Source: Platerodrilus igneus
Lineage: Eukaryota; Arthropoda; Insecta; Coleoptera; Lycidae
NCBI GenBank assembly: GCA_036346225.1
Contig: JARFIW010000941.1
Location: 1,731,501 to 1,795,500 of the forward strand
Length of the DNA stretch: 64,000 nucleotides
Direction: 5' to 3'
Shown: positions 21,709 through 61,479 of the stretch, piece after piece
Position numbering within the stretch: the stretch's first letter is position 1
Layout of the letters: the number at the start of each line of letters is the position of its first letter
Position numbers and translations under genes: made by a program
The notes under the pieces: model-generated
Seen by the model: the letters and a program-made list of their open reading frames with translations, nothing else
The model's database searches: none
What the model was told of the DNA's origin: nothing

Positions 21709-21740
<32 letters not shown>

Positions 21741-32972: not shown

Positions 32973-33019
<47 letters not shown>
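32973..33019. repeat. (TA)n microsatellite
   Basis: A TA run separating the Penelope-like fragment from LTR C. Confidence 0.95.
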
Positions 33020-33021
<2 letters not shown>

Positions 33022-35252
33022 TCATATTTAGACCAGGGTAAAAAATTAAATAATCACATCAAATAATTTTAATCACCGTGTATAAGGAATTCTATTAGAT
33101 AATACGCGTTATTAAAACCGTGAAGCATAAAATTTATTAGTTTCATTAAACATAAGAGATTTAAATCATGTACAAGACGCTTTATATCAAAAGAAGCAGT
33201 ATTAAAAAGATCTGCGTGTAATGTAATTATTCCTAAACAAATGGAAATTACGTGCAAAATTTATCTTAATTAACTGTATTTTAAGTAACCGGTAGTAAAA
33301 CAAAGTGTACACATAATAATTAATATTTAACTTGTATTCGCTAAAAATGAAAGGATAGAAGTCAATTTTAATTGAAGTTAATTGAATCGTTAGTAACAGA
33401 TAATATCTATAGAAACTTGTAAAAACCCAATAAAATGAAAATCCTAGAAGTGTTAGTTAGAAGTAGGATGTTTGAACACACCTGCGTATTTTAAAAGGCA
33501 ATTTCAGTTTAATTTGTTTAGATAAACATGTCGATTCTAAGGATATTGGAAACGGTCAGATGCTTTAGCACAAAATACAAAACAGGGTTTATTTAAATAG
33601 CTCATTCGGCGAAAATTTTGCAGATAATTAATGTTTACAAAGAATCTTGGAGAAACCGGGGCTTAATATTGACGAGAAGGTGCGATACGGGGTTATTAAA
33701 CCCAGATAGTCCACATGGACTAAAATATAATCGATAATAAAGAATATCAATTTGCACCAATACGAACAGGTTAGAAAAGGAAAGAGAAATGCGTCAAGCA
33801 AAGACACATATAGGAAAAGGCGTGATTTAAGCAACGTCACGAGGGTCACAATTGGTTGAAAATAGGATGCAAATATCAGAGGTAGAAACAACAATTTCTG
33901 TACAAAATTAATTAGTTTTTCTCGGACATGTTTGCGTTCCGTGTGAGAATTTCTGAGATTTAAATGGGGCGAGTGAAAATTTCGTAAAAACCGACGCGCG
34001 AGCGACGGACTGGGAACATAGAATGAGAAATTCTTAAGAATTGTCTGTTTTGGGGAACAGACCGACAGACAGGCTTTTCGCTATATATACCGGTGGTAAT
34101 ATGAATTTCGGCCTCTTAGACTTTTGACTATTCGATGCGTTAAAAGCTCTTACATCCGCGACTTGATTCAAGATGTTAAACAGTGCATTTTAGTTTGATA
34201 AAATAATTTAAAATTTTGCTCGTATATTTTAGTGATTCAAAATAGTTTGTTATTTACGTGCTAACATGAATGTACTTCAGTGCACTTAGATACAAGGTAA
34301 TAAAATTTAGTATCACTGTACCAATTAGCAAAATTTACAACGACAAATGTATACACAAAAGTAGGCAGTTTTGGCGTATATTGGTGAAAGACGCATGAAT
34401 TCTTTGCTATTTTTCGGGGGTGTTAATAATTAAATGGTTCAAATACGTGTCTGGATCCACGAAACAAGGGTCAGATATACACAGATGAGTTCCGGAAAAG
34501 CCCAGAAACAACTTTAAATAAATGGTGATGGAGAAAATTTTAAAAGCGTTGAGAATTAGAAGCCGTAAATATAATCCTGTTGGAATGGTGTGATTACTAA
34601 AGGGACGATGTACATTGAAGCTTCGAGGACAGTAACCTTCAGGTAAAATATACTATTTTGTTTGACATTTTTGTGTGTGTTGAATAACTTTATAATTGAT
34701 TTACTTTAAATGGACATTAGTGAAATTGTACTAACCATAAAATTTTAATTTTAAGATGAAATTTGCTTGTTTAAGTAGAAAGGGGTATTTAGTATTGATG
34801 TTCTGAATTATGATGAAAATATGGGTATGTCTTTGAGCTCAATTAGACGAACCTGGTTAATTAAGGTAAAGGGGTGGTAGATGCTCCCTTTATACTCAGA
34901 CTCCGGTCTGCTTATATTGTTAAATTAATTAGTAGGCATCCAACAAGGACTTTAATTCTGGATGCACGTTAAAGTGATAATAAAATTAATCTTGAAATTC
35001 TTTTTAAAACTGAATTTTATGCTGAAATTTAATTTGAAAATTTAATGTATTCTGAATATTGATGTAAATAGAGTTAACGTTGATGTTTGTGGTAGGAATG
35101 TGTTGTTTAATTTTATGAATGAGGAGGTTTATAAAATTAGGTGAGCAGCTGAAGCGAAAACAGGATCACAGCAGTTTATGATGCATCGATAGGTAGGACT
35201 AGAATTTTTTTGTTGAAAGGGCCAGTTCCTGCAGACGGAGGAGGTTTTACAG

Positions 35253-35292: not shown

Positions 35293-36193
35293 GTGGTTTA
35301 GAGGGCTAAATTTAAGTATAAACAAGGCAATTTCAAACACCCTGTATAGAGGAAACAACCAGAATTTACGTGCGAAATTTATTTCATTTAATGAATTTAA
35401 AGTAACAAGTATTACCATAATTTTACAATTAGTGATTAAAAATAGTTAGGTTCGTAAAGAAAATAAATTGTAGAAGCCAATGCAAATTGTTAATTAATTT
35501 AATTGAGTTTAATTGCACGGGTAATTACGTCTAATACGCATAAGAGCTTCAAAAATCGAGAATACCAAGGTGAAACGCTTTGCTAGCACATAAACAGCCG
35601 TTGAATATAAAATACCTTGAAAAGCCAACTCCTAGAAATGTTGTGTTAAAAGTTTTGTTAATTGAACACCTGCATGTTTTCGAAATGTCAGGTTTCCTTA
35701 TTTGTGTAGATAAAAGACAGAATTCAAAGTATATCGGGTAAACGGTCGGACGATTCGCGTAAATGTTAACTAAAAGTTTCCTTAGAGTGCAGAAAGGATA
35801 GCTGATCAAGGAAATTCGTCGGAAGGAAACAGGAATAATAACAGTTCACTTCATAACGCACGTATTCAGTCCACATGGGTTAGTTTGAAACGCGGACAGT
35901 AATATCGATTTCTACCACTCAAACAAGGTTAGAAGGAAACAGAATATGCATAAGAGAGGAATAGCGTTAATACAGGCGGGGTTTCAAGACGTCATTGAAT
36001 ACCTTATTGGTCTATATAGGTAGTAGTATAACAGACAAACACGGGAATATTGAATGTTAATTTTTCGGAAAATAATAACGACGAGTTAAATTTTGAAGAT
36101 TTCGAAAACGGTTGAACCAAAATTTTAAGAAGTATTATTTTAAATGAAGGATTTCGCGTTAGGAGGGTATAGAGAGGTTACATTGGAATTATA

Positions 36194-37171
36194 CAGAGTG
36201 GTAGAAAAGTCCCGGAACGGTCAAATATTTGGGAAATACTCATCGCATCAAAAAAAGAAAAAATACGTGTTCAATATTTTTTTACAAGCTATCCAATGAC
36301 ACCAAAATTGCACCCCACCCCCACCCCCTGGGGGTAGGGGTGGGGCAACTTTAAAAGTTTAAGTGGAAACCCCCATTTGTTATTGCAGATTCGGATTCCG
36401 CAGGATAAATTACCCCAAATTGACCTACGATACAAGCCATTTTGGATGATAGAAGGTGTTGTAATTGACAAAACCAAGATAGGGTACAAAAACATTTGAA
36501 ATCGAAAAATGTCAGAATTACATTCATTTTTAGTATTCATTTCGTTACTAGCTTTTGATATTATTTCGTGATGTCTCTGTCTGAAAGAGAAAGAATAAGT
36601 ATCCTGATGATGCGGGGGTATAGAGATAAAGATAGATCATTGCAGCAAGTCGCAGATTTATTCAATGAAGTCAATGCGGAATGTCAGCCGATTTCTAAAT
36701 CTACTGTGAGTCGAACAGTGAATCGTTTTGAGCGAACTGGTTCGGTGAAGGATGAACCAAGATCTGGAAGACCTAAAAGCGCGACGAGAGGTGGTCAATT
36801 TGAACACCTTCGGCGGTAATTTCGTTATGTATGAAATAAATAATTTATTATTTTACTTCTTTTATTTTCTGATCCATCAATTCTTCTAGAAATAGTTAAT
36901 TTTTGTTGATTGCAGCGCCATCTGCAAAAACCTAAAAAAATTATGACTAACATTTTGTGGCGAATCCGAATCTGCAATAACAAATGGGGGTTTCCACTTA
37001 AACTTTTAAAGTTGCCCCGCTCCCTACCCCCAGGGGGTGGGGGTGGGGGTTCAATTTTGGTGTCATTGGATAGCTTTTAAAAAAATATTGAACACGTATT
37101 TTTTTCTTTTTTTTGATGCGATGAGTATTTCCCAAAATATTTGACCGTTCCGGGACTTTTCTACCACTCTG
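36194..37171 (+). mobile_element. Non-autonomous mariner-like element with long TIRs
   Basis: A 978-bp unit with inverted repeats of about 206 bp (36194-36400 and 36965-37171) starting CAGAGTGGTAGAAAAGTCCC, flanked by TA target duplications (36192-36193 and 37172-37173). Each TIR contains an inner GC-rich hairpin (CCACCCCCTGGGGGTAGGGG). The middle holds only the N-terminal part of a transposase. It is nested in LTR D. Confidence 0.93.
36568..36819 (+). pseudogene. Transposase N-terminal HTH domain, truncated
   Basis: The frame begins MSLSERERISILMMRGYRDK and shows a helix-turn-helix region (SLQQVADLFNE, ISKSTVSRTVNRFERTGSV), then KDEPRSGRPKSAT, the GRPK-type linker found before the catalytic domain in insect mariner-like transposases with this N-terminus. 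It has 83 codons, whereas intact relatives have several hundred. The whole DDE catalytic domain is deleted and the right TIR follows soon after. It might still bind TIR DNA, but cannot catalyse transposition. Confidence 0.82.
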
Positions 37172-38404
37172 TATAAATACTCTAAAAAGATTAGCATCGC
37201 TCTCTTTTAACTTCGTTCTCTTAGTACATTCATCGCTTGAGACTACGAACAGAAATTTACCTCGAGCTTGTAAGTATATAAAATTATTTTAAATTAAATA
37301 GTACAGTGTTGGCCTTATAATTTTGATACGCGAATAGTGTCGAGTCTAAATTTTCTTGAGGTGCAACATATATCTTAAACAAGCTCGTGAAGTGACGTGA
37401 AGTAACGTAAATTAAACTAAATTAAATTAAAGTACGCAATTATAACTAAAGTGTAATAAACTTGGATTTGGATTGGATGCATTGTGAAGGCAGAGCATGC
37501 AGCACAACTTAGATGTGTTCATCTACAAATAGCTAGAAGCGGCCAGCAGAGCAGTACCACAAAACCGAGAGCGAAAACAACGTAACGGCTTCGTCAACGG
37601 AGTAGAGATCTTCAAGAAATTCCAGGTAACGCTTTAGAATTTGTTGTTTTTATAAACTATGAAAATTGTGGTGAGGTGTGAGAGTGAATTATAAAGGTAT
37701 TTTGCATTATTTTGCGTATTGAAAATAATACGTATAACTAACTTTTATGATGGTATTTAAATAGAAATCTAAAGGTGTATAAAGATTATTGACGTTCCAT
37801 CAGGATTTTAAATTTTTATTGTTACGATTACATGGGTTTTTTTTGTTTGCAGTAAGCGTATGCAAAGTAAAAAGCATACATTATTCATAATTAATTGGGT
37901 TATCATGAGCTCACTATACTCCAAAGTGTACTAATTAAAATTAATTATAAATAAAGAACGAAAAATAAGGTATTATTCAGGGCCCATTTACTCCGGTTAC
38001 ATTGAATGTGTTTAATATTTCTAGTTAAAAATACTGGACTTTACAAATAGAATTTATTGAGGTGTAACTTGAAGTAATGAAATGTAAATAATCTTGAAGT
38101 TTTATTTGTAAATAGCGGTAAATAAATATTGTATGATTGTTGTATTATTTTGTGGTTTTATTGAGTGTGTGCGTGAACGATAAAGAGTATGATAGTGAAT
38201 CTAGGTATCCAAGAGGAGACCCAACTGAGCTAGCCAGGGAAGCGGTTGAAGAATTAAAGTGATGAAGCAGGAATCTGAGTAAGAAAATAAAAATTTTTGA
38301 AAAATTTTTTTATTGTGTGAAATTTATGACGATTTTTTGGGTAAATTAAATAAAATCCTCCAATGTGTTTTGAGAAAGTACAATTCGTATAATTTACCAC
38401 GGCA

Positions 38405-38423
38405 ATATATATATATATATATA

Positions 38424-38460
<37 letters not shown>
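38405..38460. repeat. (TA)n tract
   Basis: TA-rich tract with interruptions between LTR D and the first hammerhead foldback. Confidence 0.95.
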
Positions 38461-38464
<4 letters not shown>

Positions 38465-38557
38465 AAATGCACTTTGCATTTACCTATACAAATCGAACTG
38501 GTATTTGCATAGCCATTACAAAACAATTACTTGATCGTTTTGCAGAGAGAAAAAACA

Positions 38558-38601
38558 TCCATTGACCAGGTTTCGACCTCATTAGGTCTCGTCAGAATGG
38601 A
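38558..38601 (-). ncRNA. Hammerhead ribozyme, left arm of foldback A
   Basis: This is the mirror image of the motif at 38850-38893 and identical in its core, read on the minus strand. The predicted cut is between 38564 and 38563. Confidence 0.85.
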
Positions 38602-38849
38602 CTGGTTTTAACCCTAACAAAACATCAAGCAACCTCAATGTATATGCTCGAAGAAACCTCTGTACGATGGCGAAAGAAAAAATAGAGCGCCATCAATTGG
38701 CTAAAACCAACCCTAAGGCTGAAACTGTACAGAAGTTGATTCGAAACTATACAATTGATGGCGCTCTATTTTTCCTTTCGCCATCGTACAGAGGTTTCTT
38801 TGAGCATATACATTGAGGTTGCTTGATGTTTTGTTAGGGTTAAAACTAG

Positions 38850-38893
38850 TCCATTCTGACGAGACCTAATGAGGTCGAAACCTGGTCAATGGA
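38850..38893 (+). ncRNA. Hammerhead ribozyme, right arm of foldback A
   Basis: Core CTGACGA (38856-38862), stem II GACC/GGTC with a TAATGA loop, core GAAA (38877-38880), a minimal stem III (AC/GT), and cleavage triplet GTC with the predicted cut after 38887. Stem I is TCCATT (38850-38855) paired with AATGGA (38888-38893). All invariant nucleotides of the hammerhead core are present. The very short stem III is the form known from Penelope-like elements. Confidence 0.87.
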
Positions 38894-39045
38894 TGTTTTT
38901 TCTCTCTACAAAACGATCAAGTAATTGTTTTGTAATGGCTATGCAAATACCAGTTCGATTTGTATAGGTAAATGCAAAGTGCATTTACGGATACATCTCA
39001 TGTAATTGGTTTAATTTTAACTGCAAAATTGCAGAGAAGGTTTTG

Positions 39046-39050
<5 letters not shown>

Positions 39051-39139
<89 letters not shown>
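39051..39139. repeat. Long (TA)n microsatellite
   Basis: About 89 bp of uninterrupted TA between foldback A and foldback B. Confidence 0.97.
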
Positions 39140-39144
<5 letters not shown>

Positions 39145-39170
39145 TTGCTTATAGCAAATTTAATAAATAA

Positions 39171-39496
39171 AACAGTATATACGATGTACAGATAAACACC
39201 CACTTTGCGAGGAATCCAAAGAAAGTTTTTAATTATACAAAGCAAGCTAGTAATTTGCATAGCCATAAATGAAAGAATTTGTTTGTTTCATAAAGGGAAT
39301 AAACATTCATCTACTAATTTCGATCTCACTGGATCTCATCAGGATGAAGTGGTTTATAACCCTTAAGGGTCGATAAATGTTTATTCCCTTTATGAAACAA
39401 ACAAATTCTTTCATTACTAGCTTGCTTTGTATAGTTAAAAACCCTTTTTCGATTTTTCGTAAAGTGGGTGTTTATCTATACATCGTATATACTGTT
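39171..39496. mobile_element. Penelope-type foldback B with one hammerhead
   Basis: Inverted arms 39171-39307 and 39376-39496 begin and end with AACAGTATATACGATG. The left side holds a hammerhead; the right arm starts just beyond where its partner would be, so the structure is asymmetric. The left arm carries an extra ATTTGCATAGCCAT-type stretch that also occurs in foldback A, linking the two. Confidence 0.8.
39306..39348 (-). ncRNA. Hammerhead ribozyme in foldback B
   Basis: On the minus strand: stem I TTCATC with GATGAA, core CTGATGA (39342-39336), stem II GATC/GATC, core GAAA, a short stem III with one G-T wobble, and cleavage triplet GTA with the predicted cut between 39312 and 39311. 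All core residues are intact. Confidence 0.8.
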
Positions 39497-39511
39497 ATAT
39501 ATATATATATA
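39497..39511. repeat. (TA)n at LTR boundary
   Basis: A short TA run between foldback B and the second LTR element, consistent with TA-directed insertion. Confidence 0.85.
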
Positions 39512-40999
39512 TTTTTGTACTCCTCCACCCCCCTTTTTTATTTACTTATTTTTTTCTCGTCGCTCGCCCCTTCTTATAAGTTTCAATGCTTTTTTTGTAT
39601 AATGTGCAAACACCTATTGCACGCCCCGTATTTTTGCAACGTTTGGTTGGTTATTTAATCAAAATAGTTTTTTTTAAAATGCCTCGACTATATGAACTCT
39701 TTATACTCAGGGTGTCCACCTACTTACCGTGGGTTCCGTGGTAAGTAGATGTGCAATGCCCAACCAAACTGCACTCTCTTTTGTTTTTGTACTAATTTTT
39801 GAATCTAGTTTTGTATATGCCAAATTTTTATTATGATCAACGTTGCCTTGTGCCAAATTAATTTAATACCACAAATTTATGACTTTTGACGTTATAAGAT
39901 ATTTCACAGCACTCACCTGGATTATACTTTGTTTCCGGCCTCTCTTACTGCTGGCTCAAAATCCTCGTCGCCGTATGCGCCTTTACACGGTTGCACTATC
40001 CTGTTGAATTTTCGTTTCGCCTCCAGGTATCTTTCTTTAAATTTTAGTTGCTCCCAATATCTGAAATAAATGACCCGAATTTTAGAATTTAGAATACCCG
40101 TTTATTTTACTTCCTTTGCGCTAATTCTTCCGTCGTAGTTTCTGCGTTGACTCTTCCACTTCCAATTGCTGCTCTTACGTGTTCTCCTAATTTCGCTCCT
40201 CTTGTTCCAAATTAATACGTCCGCCTTTAATCCGTACTCAATCCAAATCTATCGTCGTCCTGTTCAAAATCACTCAATGCCCCGCTACATATACATCCAT
40301 ATCAAAATCAATCTTCGTCCCTTTTTATAACCACTCAATGCCCTGCTACAATTCCAATCCGATGCCTTCTGCCTTTATCAATATCGTTCCAAATCTACCT
40401 TACTATTCGTCGCTTCGCCGTCGCACTAATACAAATCTTTACTCTTCCTTGTCGTCGCTATTTCTTATTTAGTATCGATGCTGCTCTTTATCCTTCCTTA
40501 ATAATCAAACTATTTCAAAATCGAACACGTTTACTTATCTTCAAAAATCTTTACACAATTTAGCGCAGTTCTTTAAAATACGTCTTTATACCAAAAATAT
40601 TCAAAATAAACTCCCCTTCTTTACTTTCCAAGGTGATAATTATAACATTACTTGCCTACTACATTACAAATTACATAAACTAAAATCGTCCAATAATATT
40701 TAAACACTAAGTTTGTGTCGCACATACCATAAATTATGTCCTTTTACACTTTCATAGTTTTCACATAATATTCTAGCATTGGTTCTAAATATTTTACAAT
40801 CCTTCAATCACATTTGACATTGTTATAACTTATAATTTTAAAATTACATATTCGTCCAAAAGTTGATTCTAATTAAACAAAAGCCAAAATAAATCACACA
40901 TGACCCTGGATCGGCGTGGTTGATAGTGGACATCCATAGACGCATCCGGTTTTCGGATGGCAAATGTACTTTCAATGGCCTATTAAATTCTAACTCAGT
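39512..40999 (-). repeat. 3' LTR of the minus-strand element
   Basis: Read on the minus strand it starts ACTGAGTTAGAATTTAATAG and ends GGAGTACAAAAA. It is nearly identical to 44485-45971 with a few single-base changes, which suggests recent insertion. Confidence 0.92.
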
Positions 41000-41409
41000 A
41001 TAAACCCTTGAGCACTGTGTATTTTATCACGTCATCAAGTCATTTTAATTTACCTCCTGACACTTACATTTCAACTACCCTTTTGAATACTTTAGCATAT
41101 GTAAAGTACGGCAAACATACATTTTTAAATTATGTGATCAGATATACGGATCATTTTACTTGGCATACACTACCTTCTACTAAACAAACCTTAGAACCCT
41201 TGGTAGCTCCCTCTGACACTACACTGGCCCCACTTATTTTGAATAAAAGTGGAAATTTCGTCTGTTTATACTCTTTTCTTGGTGTGCATAATTTCTAGTT
41301 TTTATTTAAATTCAACCCCCCCGCATTTCTACATCTTAATTATTCAACCCCTATTTTCCTTTCTCAATACGTCTGTCTAACTACGCTATATACTAACCTA
41401 CACTATAAA
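41000..41409. other. Internal non-coding remnant of the minus-strand element
   Basis: It lies between the end of the truncated pol frame and the 3' LTR. On the minus strand no pol motif can be read. A plus-strand (antisense) open frame of 96 codons occupies 41008-41298 and matches nothing I know. No strong polypurine tract is visible beside the LTR; CAAGGGTTTA is the nearest candidate. Confidence 0.5.
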
Positions 41410-42381
41410 CTAAAACAAAACTAAACTTTTCGTCGCATGAACTATATAACAAACTATCCTACTAAACCCTTTTCTTGCACTATTTTGTATGGATTTCAAC
41501 TTCCTCGCATCTAAACAAATTCTTATATCTCTTTTATTCGGTTTCGGTACAATAACTACCGGGTTCACATATGGAGTTTTCGCTGGTTCGATGATACCTT
41601 CTTTTAACATTTTGCTTATCTCGGCTTTAACCCTATTTCTAATTGCAAATGGGATTGGATACACTTTGGTATTAAACCCCCTATCTTCCGTGACCTCTAA
41701 CTTATGCGTATATCGCTTCGCAAATCTCGGCTCTTCATTAAACAATCCTATAAATCTATTAAATAACTCTTCTAGCTTCGCTTTAATATCAATACTCACT
41801 TTCCCTATCTGTTCATCATTAATTATTCTCGCAAACATATTACATAATCTCACTTCAACCCGTCTATAATTATTCTCTCTAATCATTCCTAATCCTGAAT
41901 TATCTATATCATTTCCATTCCTATATTCCGAACTAACCGTAGGCACCACCCATAACTTATCTTTATCAAATATCCGAATCGACCTATCCTTTCCATCTAT
42001 ATTCAATCCAAAACCCTCTATAAAATCCATTCCTAATATAAAATCAAGCTGCAACCCCTTAGTAATCAAGAACTCTGCATCTCCTGCCTTTTTATTCCCT
42101 ATAAATATCGGTACACGGATAACCCTATAAATCGTCGTTAGCTTTTTGTTCATTGCCGACCATAAATTAACCCCATCAATTGTTCCTATTCGTCCTTTTA
42201 AAAATTCTTCATGTTTTATCACCACATTCTCATCTACCAGCGACAACTGCGAACCACTATCAACTAAAGCAACATATAAACAAACTCTTAAACTAATATT
42301 AATAAACAACAGGTTCTTTTTATTAAAGGTATAACTATTTAACAATAAATCTCTTAAACTATAACATACGTCTATATTCAA
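41410..42381 (-). CDS. pol: Protease and truncated reverse transcriptase
   Basis: A 323-codon frame overlapping the gag end in another frame, as expected for pol reached by ribosomal frameshift. The aspartic protease active site is LVDSGSQLSLV (DSG instead of DTG), with the second motif FILGMDFIEG. RT starts with KVYPIPFAIRNRVKAEI, KMLKEGIIEP, PYVNPVVIVPKPN, IRICLDARKL, the usual finger motifs of Ty3/gypsy RT. Soon after ARKL the frame goes into unrelated sequence (RKGFSRIVCYIVHATKS) and stops. The palm with the catalytic Asp box, RNaseH and integrase are missing. It may still make an active protease. The start shown is a TTG; the frame stays open a little further upstream inside gag. Confidence 0.88.
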   Translation of the reverse strand: MNIDVCYSLRDLLLNSYTFNKKNLLFINISLRVCLYVALVDSGSQLSLVDENVVIKHEEFLKGRIGTIDGVNLWSAMNKKLTTIYRVIRVPIFIGNKKAGDAEFLITKGLQLDFILGMDFIEGFGLNIDGKDRSIRIFDKDKLWVVPTVSSEYRNGNDIDNSGLGMIRENNYRRVEVRLCNMFARIINDEQIGKVSIDIKAKLEELFNRFIGLFNEEPRFAKRYTHKLEVTEDRGFNTKVYPIPFAIRNRVKAEISKMLKEGIIEPAKTPYVNPVVIVPKPNKRDIRICLDARKLKSIQNSARKGFSRIVCYIVHATKSLVLF

Positions 42382-42383
42382 CC

Positions 42384-44305
42384 CTAAACATTCGGTCTTC
42401 CAAAAATTGACGTTTTTTTTTGTCCCGACGGCGCCTCGTGTATCTGCACCACCTCAATCTTATCTGTGTCCTGTGTCATCGCGCTTGTCGTCATGTGGTG
42501 GACGTTTGCGTCCCTGTCCGTCCGGCTGTATCCGTTCTGTGTTCCGCCTCCCGTAATACGGCCGTCATCCTCGTTGTTGCCGTGCTGGTACCTGTTTTGT
42601 CCTTGGAAGTCGTTCACCCGGTGTTCCCTATTGTAATACGGTCGTCTGTTTCCGTCGTGTCCCCAATGATTTCGCTGTCCGTGGTTGAAAATGTCCTGTC
42701 GGTAGTTAGGTCGGTGTTCGTGGTACGCATGTCGTCGGTTGTCTTCCCTATAACCCCGGTTTTGCTCCCAATAATTTGTCCGCGTTTTTGACTCTAGTGC
42801 CGTTGCTAAATCGAAATTTCGCATCACTCCTAAAAATTCCCGCAGTGTCTTTACATTCTGTACCACGACTTTGTCACTTCCGGTTCCATGTGTCCCGCAA
42901 GTAGTAACACTATGTCGTCCTCGCCCAATTTTGGTGTCAAGTGTTGTGCCTGGTTATATTTGTCAATCGCGTATTCTTCTCGCGATCCGTGTGTCCTACT
43001 GTAGTGTCCCGTGATTAAATTTGTCCGTATGTCTGTCTGGTGTGTGTTACTCCAGAACTGTTCTATAAATAGTCGTCGAAATTCAGCGTATGTGTCGTAC
43101 TGTCTGCGTATAATGTTGTGCCACTTTTCTGCGTTCCCTGTCAACGTCGCCCCTACTATCTGTAATTTTGTCCTTTCATTTTCGGTCTCCACGATTTCGT
43201 CCAGTCTGTCTAAAAATCCCATCGGTTGTTCCGTCCTCCGTCCCTCAAATTTTGGTAATGCGTCCCGGTTCAATTTCATATGTTGTCCGTAGTCCAGTCC
43301 AACGCGCCTCCGTTCTAGGTCGTCTAACTTGCCCTGTATTTGTCGTACTTCGCTGCCAACCCTGTTTTCTAGTCTCGTCACGTTATCTTTAAATTTTGTG
43401 TCCAGTTGGGTCCTAGCGTTCACATTTTCGTTCTGTATCGTCTCTAACGTTTGTCCTAAATTTTTGTAATTTGTCATATGTCTTTTGTCACATGTCTGAA
43501 TCTCCGTGTTTAACGTCGTGAATCCGCTGGTCATCGTCTCCTCGACTGTCTCCACGCGTGTTTTTATTTCCGAGCGTAGGTCCGTCCTTGTCGCGTTCAA
43601 GTCTCCCTGAAACTGTACCCGTGTATTTTCTAGCTTGTCGTCAACTCTGTCTACCTTTTCCTGTACTTCTGTCCTTAGGTCGTCCTTTACATTTTGCATT
43701 TGCGTGAGTAGATAGTCCTGTGTGTAGTTTAATTTTGCCGTCAATTCGGCGTGCGCTGTCTTAAACTCATTCCTCAGTTCGGTGTGTGAATCTACAATTT
43801 TGTCAGTCAAATTCGTATGTGAATCTACAATTTTTTTAGTTAGTTCCGTATGTGATTCTGTAATTTTGTTTGTCAACTCTGTATGTGAAGTTTCGATTTT
43901 GTTGGTTAAAACCTTATGTGACTCTTTTTGTTCCGTACGTGCTTCTGCGATTTTGTCTGTTAATTTCGTTTGTAGTTCCTTGTGTGATTCTTTTTGTTCC
44001 GTACGTGATTCTGCAATTTGGTTCGTTAACTCCATCTTTAGTTCCGTGTGTGAAGTCTTAAAATCGTCTTTTAAACTCATCAGGAGTCGTATAAGATCTT
44101 GGCTTCCGGCGGTTTCTGCTACCTTAACCTCCTGTACCGTCGCCTAGTCCGTTTCCATGTCTATCGCCTCCGGAACTACCTGCCTCACCTCCGTCTCCTG
44201 GACATCTCCCCCTGCGTCCATCTCTTCGTCTCGTGTCATAAATTCTGCTTCAACTCCGTATATTCTTCCTGATCTCGTAATCCTTTTCATGTCCGCGTCC
44301 GTCAT
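42384..44305 (-). pseudogene. gag: gag of the minus-strand element, lightly damaged
   Basis: The likely start is ATG at 44305-44303 (MTDADMKRITRSGR), with a single TAG at 44146-44144 and one frame change near 42860. Intact parts are 44080-42851 and 42866-42384. The order is an acidic N-terminus, then a long coiled coil with 11-residue repeats of the type TNKITESHTEL (about 44080-43740) continuing to about 43350, then the capsid-like domain (LPKFEGRRTEQPMGFLDRLD, GNAEKWHNIIRRQY, FIEQFWSNTHQ), and a His/Asn/Arg/Gln/Tyr-rich basic tail (about 42790-42560). There is no CCHC zinc knuckle. Capsid motifs align with those of the 14.3-21.7 kb element. With only two lesions it is nearly intact. Confidence 0.85.
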
Positions 44306-44464
44306 CTCTGCTGCTTATTTTTAAACTCCTTTTTACCTGAAAAAAATATAAAAAAACTACGGGCCTCACCTAATCTCGGGATTCCGTATCCTACTACTAT
44401 TTCTGTTCAGCTTTAATCTATCTAGTATCTATCTAGCCTTTTTTTTCAGCTTTTTTTTTCTTCA

Positions 44465-44482
44465 GCCCCACGTTGGGCGCCA
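44465..44482 (-). other. Primer-binding site, tRNA-Lys type
   Basis: Minus strand TGGCGCCCAACGTGGGGC, just after the 5' LTR end. This 18-mer is the site known for priming by tRNA-Lys (the Lys1,2 type used by several retroviruses and retroelements). Confidence 0.85.
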
Positions 44483-44484
44483 CC

Positions 44485-45971
44485 TTTTTGTACCCCTCCA
44501 CCCCCTTTTTTATTTACTTATTTTTTTCTTGTCGCTCGCCCCTTCTTATAAGTTTCAATGCTTTTTTGTATAATGTGCAAACACCTATTGCACGCCCCGT
44601 ATTTTTGCAACGTTTGGTTGGTTATTTAATCAAAATAGTTTTTTTTAAAATGCCTCGACTATATGAACTCTTTATACTCAGGGTGTCCACCTACTTACCG
44701 TGGGTTCCGTGGTAAGTAGATGTGCAATGCCCAACCAAACTGCACTCTTCTTTTGTTTTTGTACTAATTTTTGAATCTAGTTTTGTATATGCCAAATTTT
44801 TATTATGATCAACGTTGCCTTGTGCCAAATTAATTTAATACCACAAATTTATGACTTTTGACGTTATAAGATATTTCACAGCACTCACCTGGATTATACT
44901 TTGTTTCCGGCCTCTCTTACTGCTGGCTCAAAATCCTCGTCGCCGTATGCGCCTTTACACGGTTGCACTATCCTGTTGAATTTTTGTTTCGCCTCCAGGT
45001 ATCTTTCTTTAAATTTCAGTTGCTCCCAATATCTGAAATAAATGACCCGAATTTTAGAATTTAGAATACCCGTTTATTTTACTTCCTTTGCGCTAATTCT
45101 TCCGTCGTAGTTTCTGCGTTGACTCTTCCACTTCCAATTGCTGCTCTTACGTGTTCTCCTAATTTCGCTCCTCTTGTTCCAAATTAATACGTCCGCCTTT
45201 AATCCGTACTCAATCCAAATCTATCGTCGTCCTGTTCAAAATCACTCAATGCCCCGCTACATATACATCCATATCAAAATCAATCTTCGTCCCTTTTTAT
45301 AACCACTCAATGCCCTGCTACAATTCCAATCCGATGCTTTCTGCCTTTATCAATATTGTTCCAAATCTACCTTACTATTCGTCGCTTCGCCGTCGCACTA
45401 ATACAAATCTTTACTCTTCCTTGTCGTCGCTATTTCTTATTTAGTATCGATGCTGCTCTTTATCCTTCCTTAATAATCAAACTATTTCAAAATCAAACAC
45501 GTTTATTTATCTTCAAAAATCTTTACACAATTTAGCGCAGTTCTTTAAAATACGTCTTTATACCAAAAATATTCAAAATAAACTCCCCTTCTTTACTTTC
45601 CAAGGTGATAATTATAACATTACTTGCCTACTACATTACAAATTACATAAACTAAAATCGTCCAATAATATTTAAACACTAAGTTTGTGTCGCACATACC
45701 ATAAATTATGTCCTTTTACACTTTCATAGTTTTCACATAATATTTTAGTATTGGTTCTAAATATTTTACAATCCTTCAATCACATTTGACATTGTTATAA
45801 CTTATAATTTTGAAATTACATATTCGTCCAAAAGTTGATTCTAATTAAACAAAAGCCAAAATAAATCACACATGACCCTGGATCGGCGTGGTTGATAGTG
45901 GACATCCATAGACGCATCCGGTTTTCGGATGGCAAATGTACTTTCAATGGCCTATTAAATTCTAACTCAGT
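44485..45971 (-). repeat. 5' LTR of the minus-strand element
   Basis: The partner of 39512-40999. On the minus strand it runs from ACTGAGTTAG to ...TACAAAAA, followed by a two-base GG spacer and the primer site. Confidence 0.92.
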
Positions 45972-46023
45972 ATATATTTAAATAAAATTAAATAAAAACC
46001 CTTAACCACAAAAAATATTTAAA

Positions 46024-46068
46024 TTACTAGATACGTATTTCGACCACTATGTGGTCATCATCAGTAGG
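46024..46068 (-). ncRNA. Hammerhead ribozyme, left half of foldback C
   Basis: Minus-strand mirror of the motif at 46289-46333, with CTGATGA at 46064-46058 and the predicted cut between 46030 and 46029. Stem I is only three base pairs. Confidence 0.7.
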
Positions 46069-46288
46069 GAAAAAAAAAAATTAGCTGTATAATTTACTAT
46101 ATTGTTGCTTTAAACACTATCGAGGATATTCTCCTCACCCGCAGGCTGGTGTTCTCAACAACAAACAAGTAAATTGTGACAATTCACTTGTTTGTTGTTG
46201 AGAACACCAGCCTGCGGGTGAGGAGAATATCCTCGATAGTGTTTAAAGCAACAATATAGGTAATTATACAGCTAATTTATTTATTTTT

Positions 46289-46333
46289 TCTACTGATGAT
46301 GACCACATAGTGGTCGAAATACGTATCTAGTAA
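46289..46333 (+). ncRNA. Hammerhead ribozyme, right half of foldback C
   Basis: Core CTGATGA (46293-46299), stem II GACCAC/GTGGTC, core GAAA (46316-46319), stem III AT/AT with an ACGT loop, cleavage triplet ATC with the predicted cut after 46327. Stem I is weak: CTA/TAG, a mismatch, then TT/AA. The core is intact, but activity is less certain than for foldback A. Confidence 0.72.
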
Positions 46334-46381
46334 TTTAAATATTTTTTGTGGTTAAGGGTTTTTATTTAATTTTATTTAAAT

Positions 46382-48169
46382 CGTGCCACAGTGTTCCTAT
46401 AGATTATTAATCAGTATATATTGCTATGGTAATAGGTTTATTTAGGGGTATATAAGGTCACAAGGGAGGAACACCTCATGTAACCAACCCAAAATTAAGA
46501 AAACTAAACATTTGAATCATAAAAAGTACTTGGTCAAATAAATTGTCCGCCACACAAACTAATAGACAAACGTGTAATAATAAAAAAATAAGAATATCTT
46601 TAAAAAATGTGATTAATTTAAATCGTCATGACAAAAAAATTCTAACGTTAATGGTGTGATAGGGTGTGTTATACCCCCGCAGAAAGGAAACTTTCAACGT
46701 TCACTTTACAACTGAATTGTTTACTGTATGGAGAATAAAAGGGCGCTAGGTGAAGGTACCTTAAAGTACACAACCAGCATTACAATAGTCTATAAATTAT
46801 TGACTAATTTAAATGGTTGGGGTATACTACACTATCGCACTAACGCAGGGACAACATTTTTAGATTGGCATAATAATTACAAGCAAACACCAGCAAGGAT
46901 TAAGTAACTAAATGCGCATCTTTTTGCACGATTTTAACCTATTTGTATAATATAATATGCGTATATTGAACTAATACATTATAATCTTGTTTTGAAATGA
47001 CCCTATATTCTGATAGCTAAATCGATTAAATTACTTTATTGAACAACTGCAGCATGCAGTTTTCATTGTAAATCGCGTTATTGTACATGCAACGTTTTCT
47101 ATATGCTAATCGTGCAAAAATTCATTACATTGGATAATTGAATTTTCCTGTACATTAAATTGTTTCAATGTTCCAAACAGACTACTGTTTCAATTGTTTG
47201 TAGAATTAGTTCGATGATGTTTGTAAGCAAATAAGCATAAAGCATCCAGTGGCTTTAGTTTGGCAAAGGTTAGTGCTTTACCTTATGTGTGTGTTGACAT
47301 TTGAAAAGAGAAGACGCCAATGACCACTGCTTCGGAAGCTCATCAGATTGATCTTTTTCTTCCCTTCACAAAACACCAACGAACCGTGAAATCTTAAGAT
47401 TGACTTAAATTTAAATACAAGGTGGAAAGTTTCTAAAACGCCATCTAGTCAAATTCAGCAATGAATGTTATAGTAGAGACCAAATAAACTGGGGTATGAC
47501 TAATCTTTAAATTGGATTAATAATTTAATACCCTATCAGCATCCGTCCTCACCTGGTGCAGTCCTTTTAGCTGTCACTATCAACCTGACAATGACATTAA
47601 ACTTTTAAAATTTGTTATTTTCAGGTTGAGTTAAAAAATTGTAAAAATTACAAATAATCAAAAGATATTTTGGACATATTTAAATGTGCATTTAGATACA
47701 ACTTTTAGTAGTACATCTTTATTTGAGTTTACTTTCAGATTATGATGCATATTGTAACAAAGTATTATAAGGTCGTCAAAAAGGAATTTATTGTGAGATT
47801 ATTCCTCTAAGAAACTATTAAATAAAAGAAATAGACCAAATGACTGCAAATTTTTTTAATGATAGTAATTGAATAAGTAAACATAGTTTAGTACAATCGT
47901 CGTTATAACAAAATTGAAACAAAACCTTCGGCGTTGTTATTTAGATACGTCGTTTGAGCCACGCACACACGTCATTTACTACCTGTTGCACTTCTACCTT
48001 TCATCAGAACGGTAAGAGGTTGTGCAGTCTTTTCCCTGTGGTCAAAGGCTTCATCCCTGAATGTTTGGCATACTTCTCACAATTCGGCTGTCCTGACTTT
48101 TCGGCTTCCGATGAATCTTGGGTGTGGGTTTTTGTATCATCTTCAGAATAGCTTTCATCATCGTACGGT
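46382..48169. other. Unassigned DNA, possibly 3' remnant of a gypsy element
   Basis: A TATATATTGCTATGG near 46422 resembles the LTR-end motif in reverse. The part next to 48170 would be the region downstream of pol in the minus-strand gypsy remnant and may include its lost LTR, but no boundaries were found. No gene was recognised. Confidence 0.35.
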
Positions 48170-48698
48170 ATACAAGGTTTCATGCATTCGCTGAACGTTG
48201 AGATGAGATATGAATTGGACCTTCGTGGAAGCCTATTTTATCAACATCATATGAACTGTTCTTCTTTACCTTTGTAATACGGTAAGGACCAAGGTATTGC
48301 GATTTCAATTTAAGTCCTTGGCCTAACTGCGTTCGCTTAACAGCAACAAGATTTTAGATTTGTAAACTTTAGCTGTTAGTCTTTTCTTATTGAATGAACG
48401 TTTGGTTTCTTCTTGCAGCGCTGTAATTTGCTCACTTGCTCTTTTTCTACTTTTGTATCTATCGTTCTGATATAACAGTCGCAATTCTTCGTCGATTACG
48501 TCACAGATTTTCAAATCGTTTATTTTTCGCATCTTTATAGCTCTTAGGAGTTCAAGCGGTGTTTAACCTATGCTACGTTGATACATAGAGTTTATTAACG
48601 TATTTGTACCACTTAGATGGATCTTCTAAAGACAGTTCAGTATGTATGTTGATTATTATTGTTTAGTCTTTCGACTTGATCATTACTTCTAGACAGAC
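48170..48698 (-). pseudogene. Ty3/gypsy integrase C-terminal remnant
   Basis: On the minus strand: SNDQVERLN (end of the integrase core, usually NGQVER.N, carrying the catalytic Glu), then a degraded region, MRKINDLKICDVIDEEL, KRASEQITALQEETKRSFNKK, and after a frameshift KRTQLGQGLKLKSQYLGPYR, IGFHEGPIHIS. This is the chromodomain-less GPY/F module found at the C-terminus of many gypsy integrases. Stops and shifts make it inactive. The LINE begins right next to it at about 48700, which probably truncated it. Confidence 0.83.
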
Positions 48699-48704
48699 TC
48701 GTCG

Positions 48705-49260
48705 TTATTGTAAAACAAAGATCAGCACAAAGTCGTGCTACATTTAACAAGAAAAAGCAACTACTGTGTTCAAAGAAACATAGAAACAAGGAAAAGATTG
48801 CTTAAAACATATGTGTGGAGCACAGCACTGTACAACTGTGAAGCCTGGACAGTAGGAGAAGCGGACAAGAAAAGGCAGAAGCCTTTAAAATGTGGTGCTA
48901 CGAACGTATGATGAAGACATCATGGACAGACAAAGTTAAGAACAAAAAAATGTAGAACTTTGTAGGTGAAGAGGATGTATGTGGAAAACAGTAAAAATAA
49001 AAGAGATAGGATAATAAACAACATACTAAGGCATAAGGGAATAATGCGGAATATATTAAAAGCAGAGATATGAAAAAAGAAAAGTAGAGGTAAACTATTG
49101 CACACAGGTAGCGAAAGATGTTGGCTGTGAGAGTTTCAGGGAAGTGTGCAGGCTAACTCAGAATAGAAATCAATGGAGGTACGCGTCCAACCAATTCCAA
49201 GATGGAAAACCTAATGACGAAAAAGCTAACTGTACTTAAACCTGACGATAGCTATAAGCA
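48705..49260 (+). pseudogene. LINE 3' end, copy 1
   Basis: Translated pieces QSRATFNKKKQLLCSKK, NCEAWTVGEADKK, AFKMWCYERMMKTSWTDKV, then a charged segment and the terminal motif corresponding to (R)W..ASNQ(F/S). These are the C-terminal RT/thumb region of non-LTR retrotransposons common in insects (the CE.W...E..R...FE.WCYRR pattern). Many stops. It is 5'-truncated, as usual for LINEs. The clade (RTE-like or related) was not resolved. Confidence 0.75.
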
Positions 49261-49419
49261 ACTACAGGTATTGATTATGCAATACTCTCAACTAATGTTA
49301 ATTGTGCGAAAAGATCCTTGGTAGCCACAGGCTGCTTAATCCCTTTCACACACTAATGAATCTTGTTGAAATAGGGCATATAATTAGGAAACAACAAAAA
49401 TGGAACCGAGCTGTATCTG

Positions 49420-49720
49420 GGCTGTGTAAATTTCAAGGAACGGTGTAGGCTAGCTCAGAATAGAAATAAATAAACGTACGCGTTCAACCAATTTCTACAC
49501 GGAAAACCTAACGACGAAAAAAATAATTGCAGTTAAATCTGAAGATTATTATAAACAACTACAGGTGTTGGTTTTTAAATATTTTCAACTAATGTTGATT
49601 GTGCGAATATATTGGAAGACTATTAATTCGGCAAATGTTCAAGTATTGGGGGATCTTGGCAGCCGCAGGCTGCTTAACCCCCTTCACACTACGAGGAAAT
49701 AGGTGATATATTTGCAAACA
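49420..49720 (+). repeat. LINE 3' end, copy 2 (short)
   Basis: It shares with 49130-49380 the blocks GGCTA(A/G)CTCAGAATAGAAAT, GTACGCGT(C/T)CAACCAATT, AAACAACTACAGGTGTTGG-like, and a GCAGGCTGCTTAA(T/C)CCC ending. Confidence 0.75.
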
Positions 49721-49739
49721 ATAGAAAGGGAACCGAACT

Positions 49740-50246
49740 GCAACTAACAAGAAAGAGCAGCAGTTATGTTCGAAGACAACAAACAGAAACAAGGAAAAAA
49801 TTGTTGAAAGCATATGTGTGGAGTCCAGTACATCTATGAAATAGGGGCACTAGGCGAAGCAGACAGAAAAACGGTAGAAGCCGTTTGGAAAGTTGTGCCT
49901 CAAATGTGTGAGGATGATAGCATGGACAGACAAAGTTAAGAACAAAAAGGTTATAGAAATAGTAGGGGAATAAAGTTATCTGTGGAAAACAAAAAAAACG
50001 GGAGAAATAGAAGGGCAGGATACGTTTTATGGCATTTTCGGGAACTAGTGTGACATATATTACAAGCAAAGATAGGAAAAAAAAGGCACAGGTAGACCTA
50101 GACGAGACTATTGAACAAAGATAGTGAAAGATGCAGACTGTGTAAATTTCAGGAAAATGTGTACGTTAATTCAGAATAGGGAACAAAGAGGGTACGTACG
50201 CGTCTAACCAGTTCCAGGACTGAAGACCTAATAATGATGATGATGG
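49740..50246 (+). pseudogene. LINE 3' end, copy 3
   Basis: Similar to copy 1 throughout (ACAAGAAAGAGCAGCAGTTA, GGCGAAGCAGACAGAAAAAC, CATGGACAGACAAAGTTAAG, TCTAACCAGTTCCAGGACTG) and ends in an (ATG)n tail at about 50232-50245, a typical simple-repeat LINE tail. It is non-functional. Confidence 0.78.
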
Positions 50247-50386
50247 TAGCTAATTGCAATGATCTCAATGTAACTCTTTATGTAACGCTAGAGTATACCT
50301 AGTAGTATCTGTGTTTAGTGACTGCCTGGGAATAGATATTAAAAAAATGTAAATTTTTTCTCAAGCCAGCATATCCATTCATTGCA

Positions 50387-50388
<2 letters not shown>

Positions 50389-50438
<50 letters not shown>

Positions 50439-50494
50439 ATATAATATATATATATTATAAATATATTATATTTGTATATATTTAAATATATATA
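50389..50494. repeat. AT tract, mostly (TA)n
   Basis: A TA run of about 45 bp followed by degenerate TA-rich sequence, directly beside the 1-kb palindrome. Confidence 0.9.
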
Positions 50495-51493
50495 CAATTA
50501 AGATAGATTTTTTTATTTTGGGTTTTGTTTCATTCAAATGTCATAAATATTTAAAATGCCAAAGTCATTTATTTACAACTGACGTTTCAAAAAACATGTT
50601 TTCTTACACTTAGTTCTGTAATCAAATAGTTAACATCTTTGGAGAATTTCTTAAATCTATCCTTACATTTATTAGACTGTTGGTTTTTGTGACATTTTGT
50701 GTTGTAATGTAATTTGTATTTCTTTCGTTTTGGTTGGTTATATTTACCAACTACGTTATTTATACTGAAAACTACAGGAGTAACAATTACAAATAAGAAA
50801 ATAAAAATTTTTTAATTAGAGATGTTGCTACTTATAAAATATATAAAAATATGATGATCTACTGTAACATTATAATTAATAAAAATATTATCATCTATAT
50901 ACATTGTGTATTACATTCTAATGTGTTCGTATTTGTGTTTGTGCGTGTGTGTATGTGCGCGTGCGTGCCTGCACACGCGCGCCTATGCCCGTGCACATGC
51001 TCGTGCGAGCGAGCGCGCGAGAGAGCGCGCATGCACGTCAGAGTGCGCGCGCACGCGCACGTACGCCTACACACATGCACACACACAAATACAAACATAT
51101 TAGAATGTAATACACACTGTATATAAACCATAATATTTTTATTAATTATTATGTTACAGTAGTTTATCATAATTTTATATAATTTAGTAGCAATATCTTT
51201 TAAAATTTTTTATTTTCGTATTTGTAATTGTCACTACTGTAATTTTCAGCATAAATAACGTAGTTGGTAAACATGACCAACTAAAACAAAACAAAATCTC
51301 ACAAAAAACAACAGTCTAATATATGTTAGTATAGATCTAAGAAATTCTCCAAAGACGTTAACTATTTGTTTACAGAACTAAGTGTAAGGAAACATATTTT
51401 CCGAAACCTCAGATGTGAATACATGACTTTGGCATTTTAAATATTTATGACATTTGAACGAAACAAAACCCAAAAAAAAAAGTATCTTAATTG
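50495..51493. mobile_element. 1-kb foldback element with GC-rich core
   Basis: Inverted arms of over 400 bp run from CAATTAAGATA to TATCTTAATTG and can be matched along their length (TTTAAAATGCCAAAGTCAT; GTTAACATCTTTGGAGAATT; AATGTAATACACA) with moderate divergence. Both sides are TA tracts. The centre is an alternating purine-pyrimidine GC-rich segment. It could be a foldback DNA transposon or an old Penelope-type foldback; a weak hammerhead-like remnant (stem II plus GAAAC and a cleavage triplet, but without the CTGANGA core) sits at about 51385-51408. No coding content. Confidence 0.8.
50933..51088. other. Alternating GT/GC core, Z-DNA-prone
   Basis: About 150 bp of GTGCGTGTGTGT, GCGCGTGCGTGC, GCGCGCACGCGC and CACACACA-type alternation at the centre of the palindrome. 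Open frames over it (Cys/Val/Arg/Ala-rich) on both strands are composition artefacts. Confidence 0.85.
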
Positions 51494-51525
51494 AATATAA
51501 TAACGTCCAGATGGAAAAAATCTAT

Positions 51526-51527
<2 letters not shown>

Positions 51528-51568
<41 letters not shown>

Positions 51569-51587
51569 TTACTTATACATATATATT
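51528..51587. repeat. (TA)n tract
   Basis: TA-rich tract between the palindrome and the minus-strand LTR-like unit. Confidence 0.92.
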
Positions 51588-59339: not shown

Positions 59340-61479
59340 CTGTAACAAAATTCTTTAATTAATAACCTAGGTTATAAGTTGTGAGTTTCCTAGCTATCGA
59401 GAGTTGAGTAGAAATATTTAAGCATAATAATTAAATTTGTTGAAAAAAATTATTTCGATTGCCGCACATATTTATTTATGCAAAATGATGTCTGTCTAAT
59501 TGGCGGATCTTGATTTTCTGATGCCCCAGGCGTAACCCGATTTGGAGGTTCCCTACTGACTATACTAAAAATGAGACTGTTCACCAAAAAGAACAGTGCG
59601 GAAAATCATAGTTGTGTATTTTTGAAATTAAGAACAACAAATACATAAAGATAACATACAGAGATAATATTTTCAAGTATTAGAAAAATAAGCAGATTCC
59701 TATTTGAAAGAAAAAAATACCTTCTCCGGTAGAAAATCTGCATAATATTTTTAGTAATTTAGTATTACTAATTTAACTTTAAACGAGAGATGCTCGTTTA
59801 ATGTTTGTTACGTGTTAAGTAAATTAACACGCAACAAGCCTTTCATTTATCGGACATTTCGTTTCCATTTTTTATATTCATTAAATTTATAGTATTTTGT
59901 GTAAAAGTAAAGGAATTCCTTTTGTTTCTTAAATTCAACCCTGCTTATTTTACAATTATAATTTACACTGTAAGAATGATTCTAATATGCGTAAATACGT
60001 TAAGATATCCTCGGGGATATTTAACGCTCTCGAGGAATGTAAGATGAACACGCCTTATTGAAGCGACAAAGTTATATATTTTGATTAGTTATAGGACATC
60101 AGCTGATTTGAATAAGCCAATTCCGGGGGTGTCGGATAAACACTGAGACAATGGGGGTATTTACGTGGACCACTTAAGTACCGGGATTAACGGAAATGGG
60201 TGTGTTTTTCGGAGTACCGTTCTTGCGCGTGTTTTCAATGTAGTGTCTGAAATTATCTTCCCCATCTTTCTTTAACTTTTTCCCTTTAGCGCACTACAGA
60301 GAATTGGACGCATCTATATACATTAAATTTGAGAAAATCGAGCCACTAAACCCTGAGATTGAGCCGTTTTCGAGGCACGAACTATAAGTGTTACAAACTT
60401 AGTAAGTTTTTGATAGAAGTTTGCGTTGTTGAACTTAAATCTTTAATTAAGTACGAGTGGAACTTCTTTTGCCTTCATCTTTACAAACATCAATAGTAGA
60501 TTCACCATCAAACAATTGAATATTATTTTCTTTAAACATGAGTCATAAATTGATTGAACAAAATTGACCCAATAAATTACGTAAAAAATTTACAGATAAT
60601 AATTGAGGAAAGTACTTCTCCGTTCGAGATCTTGTAGAGAAGATTGGGTATAATAAAGAACATTTTTCAAAGGGGTTTTACAAATCTCAGTCTATTAAGA
60701 TAAAAGAGAAGACACACATACGAAAAAATATGTAAGTTCTTATTAACGGGTTGGATTTTATTTGCAACAATTAAAACTAGTGGAATTATAAGGCTTAATG
60801 TCAACCATTTTTGAAAGTAAAAAGCTTAAGATTTATACGAAGTCACCAAAAACATGGAAAATGTATCCACTACATAGGAAAAAAGAACAAACGAACAAAG
60901 TTCTTATGTAAGAAGTAAAGGAGCGTATAAATACTACCAAGTTTCGAACAAACACTAGCAAGTGACCGAGATTGGATTAAATTGCGAGAACCAAAGAGAC
61001 AGATCACAGAAACAAGTTATTATATTTTTGTAGTTTGAAAATTACTAAGGAAATGTTGTCTGGCAATGCCAACTTAACTACACTATCGGAAATTTGAAGA
61101 AGTTTCCGGGAGTTGGTTGCTTATACTTGAATATAAAAGGCGTATGGAAAACGTTTTGTATATATTAATATACTACGGTCCCTTTAAAATTCAAGATCTT
61201 TGTTGGTTGTTTTGCAAAGAGATATGCGTCAGTCTGACGAGCTGCAAACACAGCGAAACCGGTCATAAGTTTTTCCCTTTGTAAAATAACAAACAAATTG
61301 AATTTTTGTTCAATATGCTTAAACTACTCATCTCCTGAAAAAATTATATGCCACTGTTATACTGGAAGCACTTTAGCTTCTGTCACTCGAAATCCCCAGT
61401 AACATTAAGTGTAGTACATTTTTGGATGGTCCGCTAATGTTATAGTGAGTAAGGTCATTTGTTATTTTCACTCTATATA
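59340..61479. other. Probable receptor intron, no gene seen
   Basis: Upstream (minus-strand) flank of the TM6-TM7 exon, so presumably intron. No further GPCR exon, repeat or RNA gene was identified. It is AT-rich and without TA microsatellites. Confidence 0.5.

Follow-up and report, generated by a model that had tools for sequence, protein, structure and literature searches.

A real and recurrent arrangement of palindromes and hammerhead ribozymes is present in the DNA analysed here (a stretch of 64 kb, called the window throughout), in which known parts are combined in a form that was not found in the literature searched. It comprises a palindrome with a hammerhead in each arm (E1), a related palindrome with a single hammerhead (P2), a third palindrome (P3), and a putative relic (S4). 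Among the titles and abstract openings of the matches listed, no published description of coding-free palindromes with hammerheads in both arms was found. We favour, with about even confidence, an origin of E1 and P2, and probably also of P3 and S4, as non-autonomous Penelope-like or retrozyme-like derivatives, which would have been copied head-to-head into TA-rich DNA.

Palindromes and hammerhead cores in the window

The window is AT-rich repeat DNA containing LTR retrotransposons, and the relatives of a Pao-type polyprotein piece in it make an arthropod the most likely host. Four palindromes were detected by self-comparison of this sequence, three of which carry hammerhead cores (E1, P2, and P3). 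The fourth, listed in this comparison at 50489-51499 and spanning 50395-51586, is 1.2 kb long, imperfect (81%), and bounded by TA tracts at both ends, and it was negative in the core scan. The features are as follows:

38405..38460, no strand: TA tract abutting the left side of E1
38461..38990, no strand: E1, palindromic element; arms 38455-38699 and 38752-38996, including a few flanking bases
38463..38483, no strand: small palindrome of 21 nt, read from the sequence, on E1's left outer tip; mirror copy at 38968-38988
38558..38601, minus strand: left-arm hammerhead of E1; RF00163, 24.8 bits; predicted cut between 38564 and 38563
38700..38751, no strand: spacer of E1, the palindrome centre (repeat search)
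38850..38893, plus strand: right-arm hammerhead of E1; RF00163, 24.8 bits; predicted cut between 38887 and 38888
39050..39143, no strand: TA tract separating E1 and P2, beginning 53 bp past the right arm of E1
39163..39504, no strand: P2, second palindrome, of the E1 family, 166 bp past the right arm of E1
39306..39348, minus strand: single hammerhead at the hairpin tip of P2; intact core, triplet GUA; predicted cut between 39312 and 39311
39512..45974, minus strand: LTR retrotransposon adjoining P2, outside the palindromic elements; LTRs of 1.49 kb, 99% identical
45976..46381, no strand: P3, third palindrome, about 96% complementary, 1-nt spacer
46024..46070, minus strand: mirror copy in the left arm of P3 (core scan); intact core, stem I of 3 bp; missed by the looser descriptor
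46287..46333, plus strand: minimal hammerhead-like motif in the right arm of P3 (descriptor and core scan); predicted cut between 46327 and 46328
61234..61264, plus strand: S4, hammerhead core with a broken stem I; weak inverted arms at about 61150-61340

The palindrome that an earlier note had described in E1 is real. Its arms are 245 nt long, 98% complementary, and 52 nt apart in the repeat search, and the spacer is 52 nt of unique sequence with no palindrome at the junction. Only five mismatches separate the arms, and the ribozyme stretch is free of them. The RNA fold of E1 has an energy of -437 kcal/mol (z -59.5). The two outer tips of the element can also be aligned as a direct repeat. 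On the left, E1 is bordered directly by a TA tract, as had been noted, and both E1 and P2 have one end on a TA run. Except for a possible TA at E1, no target-site duplication was found. The description of E1 as coding-free agrees with the lack of any Pfam match in the three tested ORFs that overlap it.

The two mirror-image hammerheads that had been claimed in E1 were recovered at exactly the same positions by the RF00163 model (Hammerhead_1) and by a motif descriptor. Both copies have an E-value of 0.0048 when 2.5 kb are searched and of 0.12 for the whole 64-kb window. The covariance model thus places both motifs, but their score is below the Rfam gathering score (24.8 versus 34 bits), and an Rfam scan at the gathering threshold gave no match to E1. 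These hammerheads are of type I, one per arm and outward-pointing, and each strand of E1 carries one correctly oriented, usable copy, as had been proposed. The type I pattern (three helices around a CUGANGA ... GAAA ... UH core, with the open end at stem I) was found in both arms of E1 and in P2. Stem II has 4 bp in the Rfam drawing, or 5 bp when the next U-A pair is counted; stem III has 3 bp in the same drawing, or 2 bp and a 3-nt loop; and stem I has 6 bp, beyond which a bulge is followed by 5 further bp as an outer tier. The earlier size of 6 bp for stem I holds apart from this outer tier, and that of 4 bp for stem II holds in the Rfam drawing. The 5'-OH positions given earlier, 38888 on the plus strand and 38563 on the minus strand, are correct for a cut after GUC. 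The hammerhead fold is not the minimum-energy fold of the isolated E1 stretch, and the same is true of the isolated P2 stretch.

The number of cores in the window is far above chance expectation. A strict motif descriptor of the hammerhead was run on the 64 kb and on 60 simulated 64-kb sequences, and returned three matches in the window (two in E1 and one in P2) versus two matches in all 60 simulations. By using a looser descriptor, which permits one or two extra bases following A9, five matches were obtained (two in E1 and one each in P2, the right arm of P3, and at 3738 on the minus strand) versus one locus in 100 simulations. The match at 3738-3672 on the minus strand was rejected as unconvincing, having a large unstructured loop. 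A scan for the core alone (CUGANGA and GAAA joined by a stem II of 4 bp or more) identified six cores in the 64 kb: E1 and P3 have two each, and P2 and S4 have one each. In 100 simulations, the mean was 0.05 cores per window and no window had more than one, the simulated windows preserving dinucleotide content only. Five of the six cores lie inside clear palindromes and the sixth, S4, between weak inverted arms. The suggestion that E1 is a recurring unit is thus borne out within the 64-kb window, by two further core-bearing palindromes and one putative decayed relic.

This distribution bears on one of the rival explanations, which we regard as improbable. The hammerhead units could be relics of ancestral type I retrozymes, single units that were made palindromic by ordinary DNA repair (through foldback synthesis or template switching during replication), the palindrome itself having no role. 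The hammerhead-free palindrome at 50395-51586 is consistent with such a route, and the differing apparent ages of the arms (98% in E1, 88-91% in ungapped pieces of P2, and barely visible arms in S4) fit sporadic inversion. However, repair would not be expected to choose hammerheads each time, and five of the six cores are in clear palindromes, with only weak arms around the sixth.

P3 shows no similarity to E1 or P2 in the self-comparison of the window. Its right-arm sequence reads CUGAUGA-U-GACCAC-AUA-GUGGUC-GAA-AUACGUAU-C and is mirrored in the left arm. The right-arm motif has an extra U after A9 and a self-complementary, loopless stem III, and it conforms to the type I pattern only if that one extra U is allowed. 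Five of six stem I pairs are present in the right copy, and three contiguous pairs in the left copy. Going by the wording of reviews, the core presumably resembles the Penelope ribozymes. A scan with its pattern matched 26 contigs. A loopless, self-complementary stem III has been described in hammerheads that act as dimers (PMC3088659, PMC7761336). Because an Rfam scan of the whole window gave no match to P3 and its local fold is not above that of shuffles (z -1.46, 18/200), P3 is predicted with less certainty to be a working ribozyme.

In S4, the core letters are intact and the type I pattern breaks down at stem I. RF02275 gives a partial match of 21.5 bits (E 0.94). Scores as high as that of its inverted arms were reached by 6 of 2571 random positions and by 3 of 2000 shuffles. 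The S4 tail aligns with P2 at a score of 47. Of 2000 shuffles, 3 did as well, and the top-scoring background chunk of the window reached the same value; the alignment of the tail with E1 is poorer, being equalled by 58 of 2000 shuffles. S4 is therefore kept only as a candidate decayed relic, on account of its core and weak arms.

Comparison of the E1 and P2 ribozymes

The arms of P2 are more diverged than those of E1, with ungapped pieces that are 88% and 91% complementary and an overall value of 76% with gaps. One E1 arm matches P2 with 72.9% identity over 140 nt (E 4e-13), and by this sequence match the two palindromes are homologous. The P2 hammerhead occupies the place that matches its position in E1, and all of its invariant bases are intact; two core letters differ (N7, C to U; H17, C to A), both being permitted bases. 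RF02275 recognizes it weakly (19.1 bits versus a gathering score of 52), with E-values of 0.035, 0.23, and 5.8 for search spaces of 386 nt, 2.5 kb, and 64 kb, respectively. Other Rfam matches to P2 or to the TA tracts (MIR807, mir-297, and similar families) are below gathering and were rejected, as they represent the hairpin or the TA repeat itself.

Outside stem III, the two ribozymes differ at 10 of 37 positions, and the invariant core positions are all unchanged. When ten changes were placed at random, a valid ribozyme remained in 10, 76, and 462 of 400000 cases at transition fractions of 0.33, 0.67, and 0.90, respectively. In both E1 and P2, stem I has two tiers separated by a bulge, the inner one being of 6 bp. 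Across the 16 E1 pairs of stems Ia, Ib, and II, nine bases are changed in P2, 15 pairs are kept, and four pairs are doubly compensated; the lost pair is the fifth pair of stem II. Simulated change sets equalled this result in 14 of 200000 cases at a transition fraction of 0.33 and in 130 of 200000 at 0.90, and in 22 of 200000 when the broken pair was omitted (15-pair count). The outer tier Ib was drawn after inspection of the sequences, and a count of 11 pairs that excludes it gives three compensated and ten kept pairs, equalled by 287 or 1681 of 200000 simulated sets (transition fractions of 0.33 and 0.90). Since 15 of the 16 pairs still pair and four of them have changed on both sides, this one comparison of two sequences suggests that the ribozyme has been conserved as an RNA structure between E1 and P2.

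The palindromes themselves have not been kept in the same manner. The centres of E1 and P2 differ in their position relative to the ribozyme, and the outer ends differ too. The term double-headed, which had been applied to E1, also suits P3, each having two cores, but not the related P2, whose one ribozyme is at the hairpin tip. A 12-nt palindrome is found at one junction of P2, and the homology of the inverted arms begins at the same spot, some 3 nt or less from the predicted cut. That the boundary of the P2 arms was set at the ribozyme cut site is only an idea, drawn from one case.

The same data make it very improbable that the arrangement is a product of chance or assembly, i.e., an inverted-read artefact around a chance hammerhead. 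Long reads are known to give foldback artefacts (PMC12870357), and the Rfam scores under the gathering threshold would also be in keeping with a chance motif. However, such an artefact would not give the five arm differences in E1 or the 9-12% differences in ungapped pieces of P2, and the cores are far above chance and covary between E1 and P2.

Predicted masking and release of the ribozyme

In E1 and P3 (4/4 cores), the ribozyme strand is directed away from the palindrome centre, and the ribozyme of P2 lies between the arms. Whichever arm of E1 or P3 is transcribed first is a nearly perfect antisense copy of the second arm and its ribozyme. The consequences were estimated from fold energies, which describe an equilibrium in a model without the tertiary contacts of the hammerhead. 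Forcing the ribozyme to form costs 84 kcal/mol in the full-length E1 RNA and 73 kcal/mol in the full-length P3 RNA. The cost is 6.6 kcal/mol in 7/7 E1 RNAs whose start is at or beyond 38605; in four P3 RNAs with a start at or beyond 46066 it is 3.5-8.1 kcal/mol, and in the full P2 RNA 8.0 kcal/mol. In this model, about 6 kcal/mol is taken as a baseline that reflects the open core. Because the full-length penalty is 84 or 73 kcal/mol versus 8.0 kcal/mol, gating by the transcription start site is predicted for E1 and P3 and not for P2. The earlier idea that hairpin formation might switch the ribozyme off is compatible with these modelled values, as shown by the full-length and internally started RNAs of E1.

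It might further be supposed, and we consider this quite unlikely, that the palindrome is the functional form of a mobile family, with the antisense arm as a built-in lock. Read-through RNA entering from either side would then form one long duplex in which the ribozyme is masked, and an internally started RNA would have one ribozyme freed, which would cut the RNA towards the element end. If this were true, the element would, on either strand, keep the RNA that it starts itself apart from read-through RNA of the host.

Origin of the palindromes and neighbouring repeats

According to the head-to-head copying that we favour, the movable unit would be a hammerhead-bearing terminal repeat, which may be comparable to a Penelope-like pseudo-LTR for P3 and to the unit of metazoan type I retrozymes for E1 and P2. 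During reverse transcription, this unit would be copied head-to-head, via self-priming or a template jump, giving two inverted units whose hammerheads lie near the outward (3') ends. This product would then be inserted into TA-rich DNA. A junction well upstream of the ribozyme would yield two ribozymes (E1 and P3), and a junction at the ribozyme would yield a single one on the hairpin tip (P2, and perhaps S4). Read-through RNA of E1 or P3 would form a duplex that masks the ribozyme, leaving self-cleavage to RNA with an internal start. The finding that E1 and P2 are homologous yet differently centred relative to the ribozyme fits an independent inverted copying of one unit.

Several features of this scheme are known from Penelope-like elements. 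In Adineta vaga, Penelope elements carry inverted pLTRs arranged head-to-head, with junction palindromes that have been read as a sign of self-priming; they are reported to prefer simple, AT-rich targets, and between their pLTRs they have captured unrelated sequences (PMC3846280). Hammerheads are not mentioned in that paper, and the pseudo-LTRs of Penelope-like elements have been described elsewhere as carrying minimal type I hammerheads (PMC7761336, PMC11167929). By analogy, the two observations combined would account for palindromes with outward hammerheads. In the window, inverted hammerhead repeats lie beside TA tracts, and if they derive from terminal repeats, the likeness would cover the type I hammerhead in such a repeat, inverted head-to-head pairs, and AT-rich targets; the junctions also agree, with the 12-nt palindrome in P2 and the P3 arms 1 nt apart. 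On the other hand, no ORF of Penelope-like elements was found between or beside the copies, and the short looped stem III and tiered stem I of E1 and P2 differ from pLTR ribozymes, which are described as minimal. No Penelope remnant or other reverse-transcriptase or GIY-YIG remnant was detected in 10 ORFs or in six-frame Pfam scans of 46382-61380 and 1-14000, which were run without a positive control, and a one-frame scan of 46382-49381 also gave no Penelope coding remnant. Full membership among Penelope-like elements, as defined by such an ORF, is thus denied in the regions scanned; the proposed mechanism is not, because a non-autonomous derivative would lack the ORF.

The metazoan non-LTR retrozymes, whose hosts include insects, are described as small, AT-rich, and non-coding, with a type I hammerhead and a weak stem III (PMC7229834), and E1 and P2 share all of these traits. 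With its looped stem III and tiered stem I, the E1/P2 ribozyme looks closer to the classical type I ribozymes of these retrozymes. However, retrozymes are described as tandem repeats that give rise to circular RNA (PMC7229834), whereas the copies here are inverted, and two like-oriented cuts that release a unit from one strand are therefore impossible within E1. Direct tandem copies of E1 or P2 with a unit of 150-400 nt, a retrozyme trait, were absent from the window. The W-elements of Schistosoma are also said to bear hammerheads.

A different origin, which we consider somewhat unlikely, is that E1 is a MITE or foldback DNA transposon that moved by cut-and-paste into a TA target with the help of a mariner-type transposase acting in trans, the hammerhead lying merely within its repeats. 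Tetris (PMC4079207) and Galileo (PMC3573991) are described as having the same long inverted arms, short spacer, and no coding capacity found. The near-perfect 245-bp arms of E1 resemble terminal inverted repeats, TA or AT is present at the boundary on both of its sides, and a nearby element at 36189-37176, which has 215-bp inverted ends and a helix-turn-helix fragment, indicates that DNA transposons are present in the genome. Against this origin, the termini should be preserved by a transposase, but the related P2 has other outer ends and another centre; TA flanks are uninformative within TA tracts; and the compensation in the ribozyme pairs suggests that selection acted on the RNA, for which a DNA transposon has no need. 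Neither conserved termini nor a constant target-site duplication was found, a weak test with two members and, at best, TA in TA repeats. Ribozymes are also not referred to in the titles or abstract openings of the Tetris and Galileo papers.

Viroid-like and HDV-like RNAs likewise have one ribozyme usable per polarity; they are described as circular RNA replicons (PMC7761336), whereas the two E1 ribozymes are copies of one, related by the DNA palindrome. A phage collection searched with E1 gave no match. By scanning viral contigs for the exact E1 ribozyme core, three contigs were found (RF00163, 22.9 bits, below gathering), in which the letters of the core and stem II are as in E1:

L001, 5777-5814: hammerhead match
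L002, 4464-4501: hammerhead match
L003, 2989-3026: hammerhead match

The first two were rejected as relatives of E1, since the surrounding sequence is unlike E1 by eye. The conserved tail of E1 and P2 had no matches in the viral contigs.

The role of the hammerhead in Penelope-like elements has been described as unknown (PMC7761336), and in one in vitro study cleavage by the ribozyme is reported as not needed for insertion (PMC11167929). The forms with two ribozymes (E1 and P3) and the form with a tip ribozyme (P2) offer a direct test of its role in making or placing new copies. The same contrast also tests whether inverted copying begins at the ribozyme cut.

The LTR retrotransposon at 39512-45974 probably separated P2 from P3 by a later insertion. 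No clean target-site duplication was seen in its inspected flanks. It has a weak aspartyl protease match, below the cut-off, and its long minus-strand ORF contains 33/66-bp tandem repeats at 43776-44053; a protein search with the gag-like ORF gave no match. The element at 36189-37176 is possibly a mariner-like DNA transposon, with inverted ends aligned over 215 nt (96%) and an internal ORF that resembles HTH_32 and HTH_29 below the cut-off. A second LTR-like pair of direct repeats (98-99%) is located at 14349-21709, and a related copy at 33008-35125 is 87-93% identical. Two copies of a repeat, 76% identical and inverted relative to each other, occur at 23337-23548 and 53770-53978, and both overlap TA tracts. 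In addition, the window contains a piece of a Pao-type polyprotein, whose relatives among the best 120 of 319 matches come from mosquitoes, beetles, ants, wasps, and spiders.
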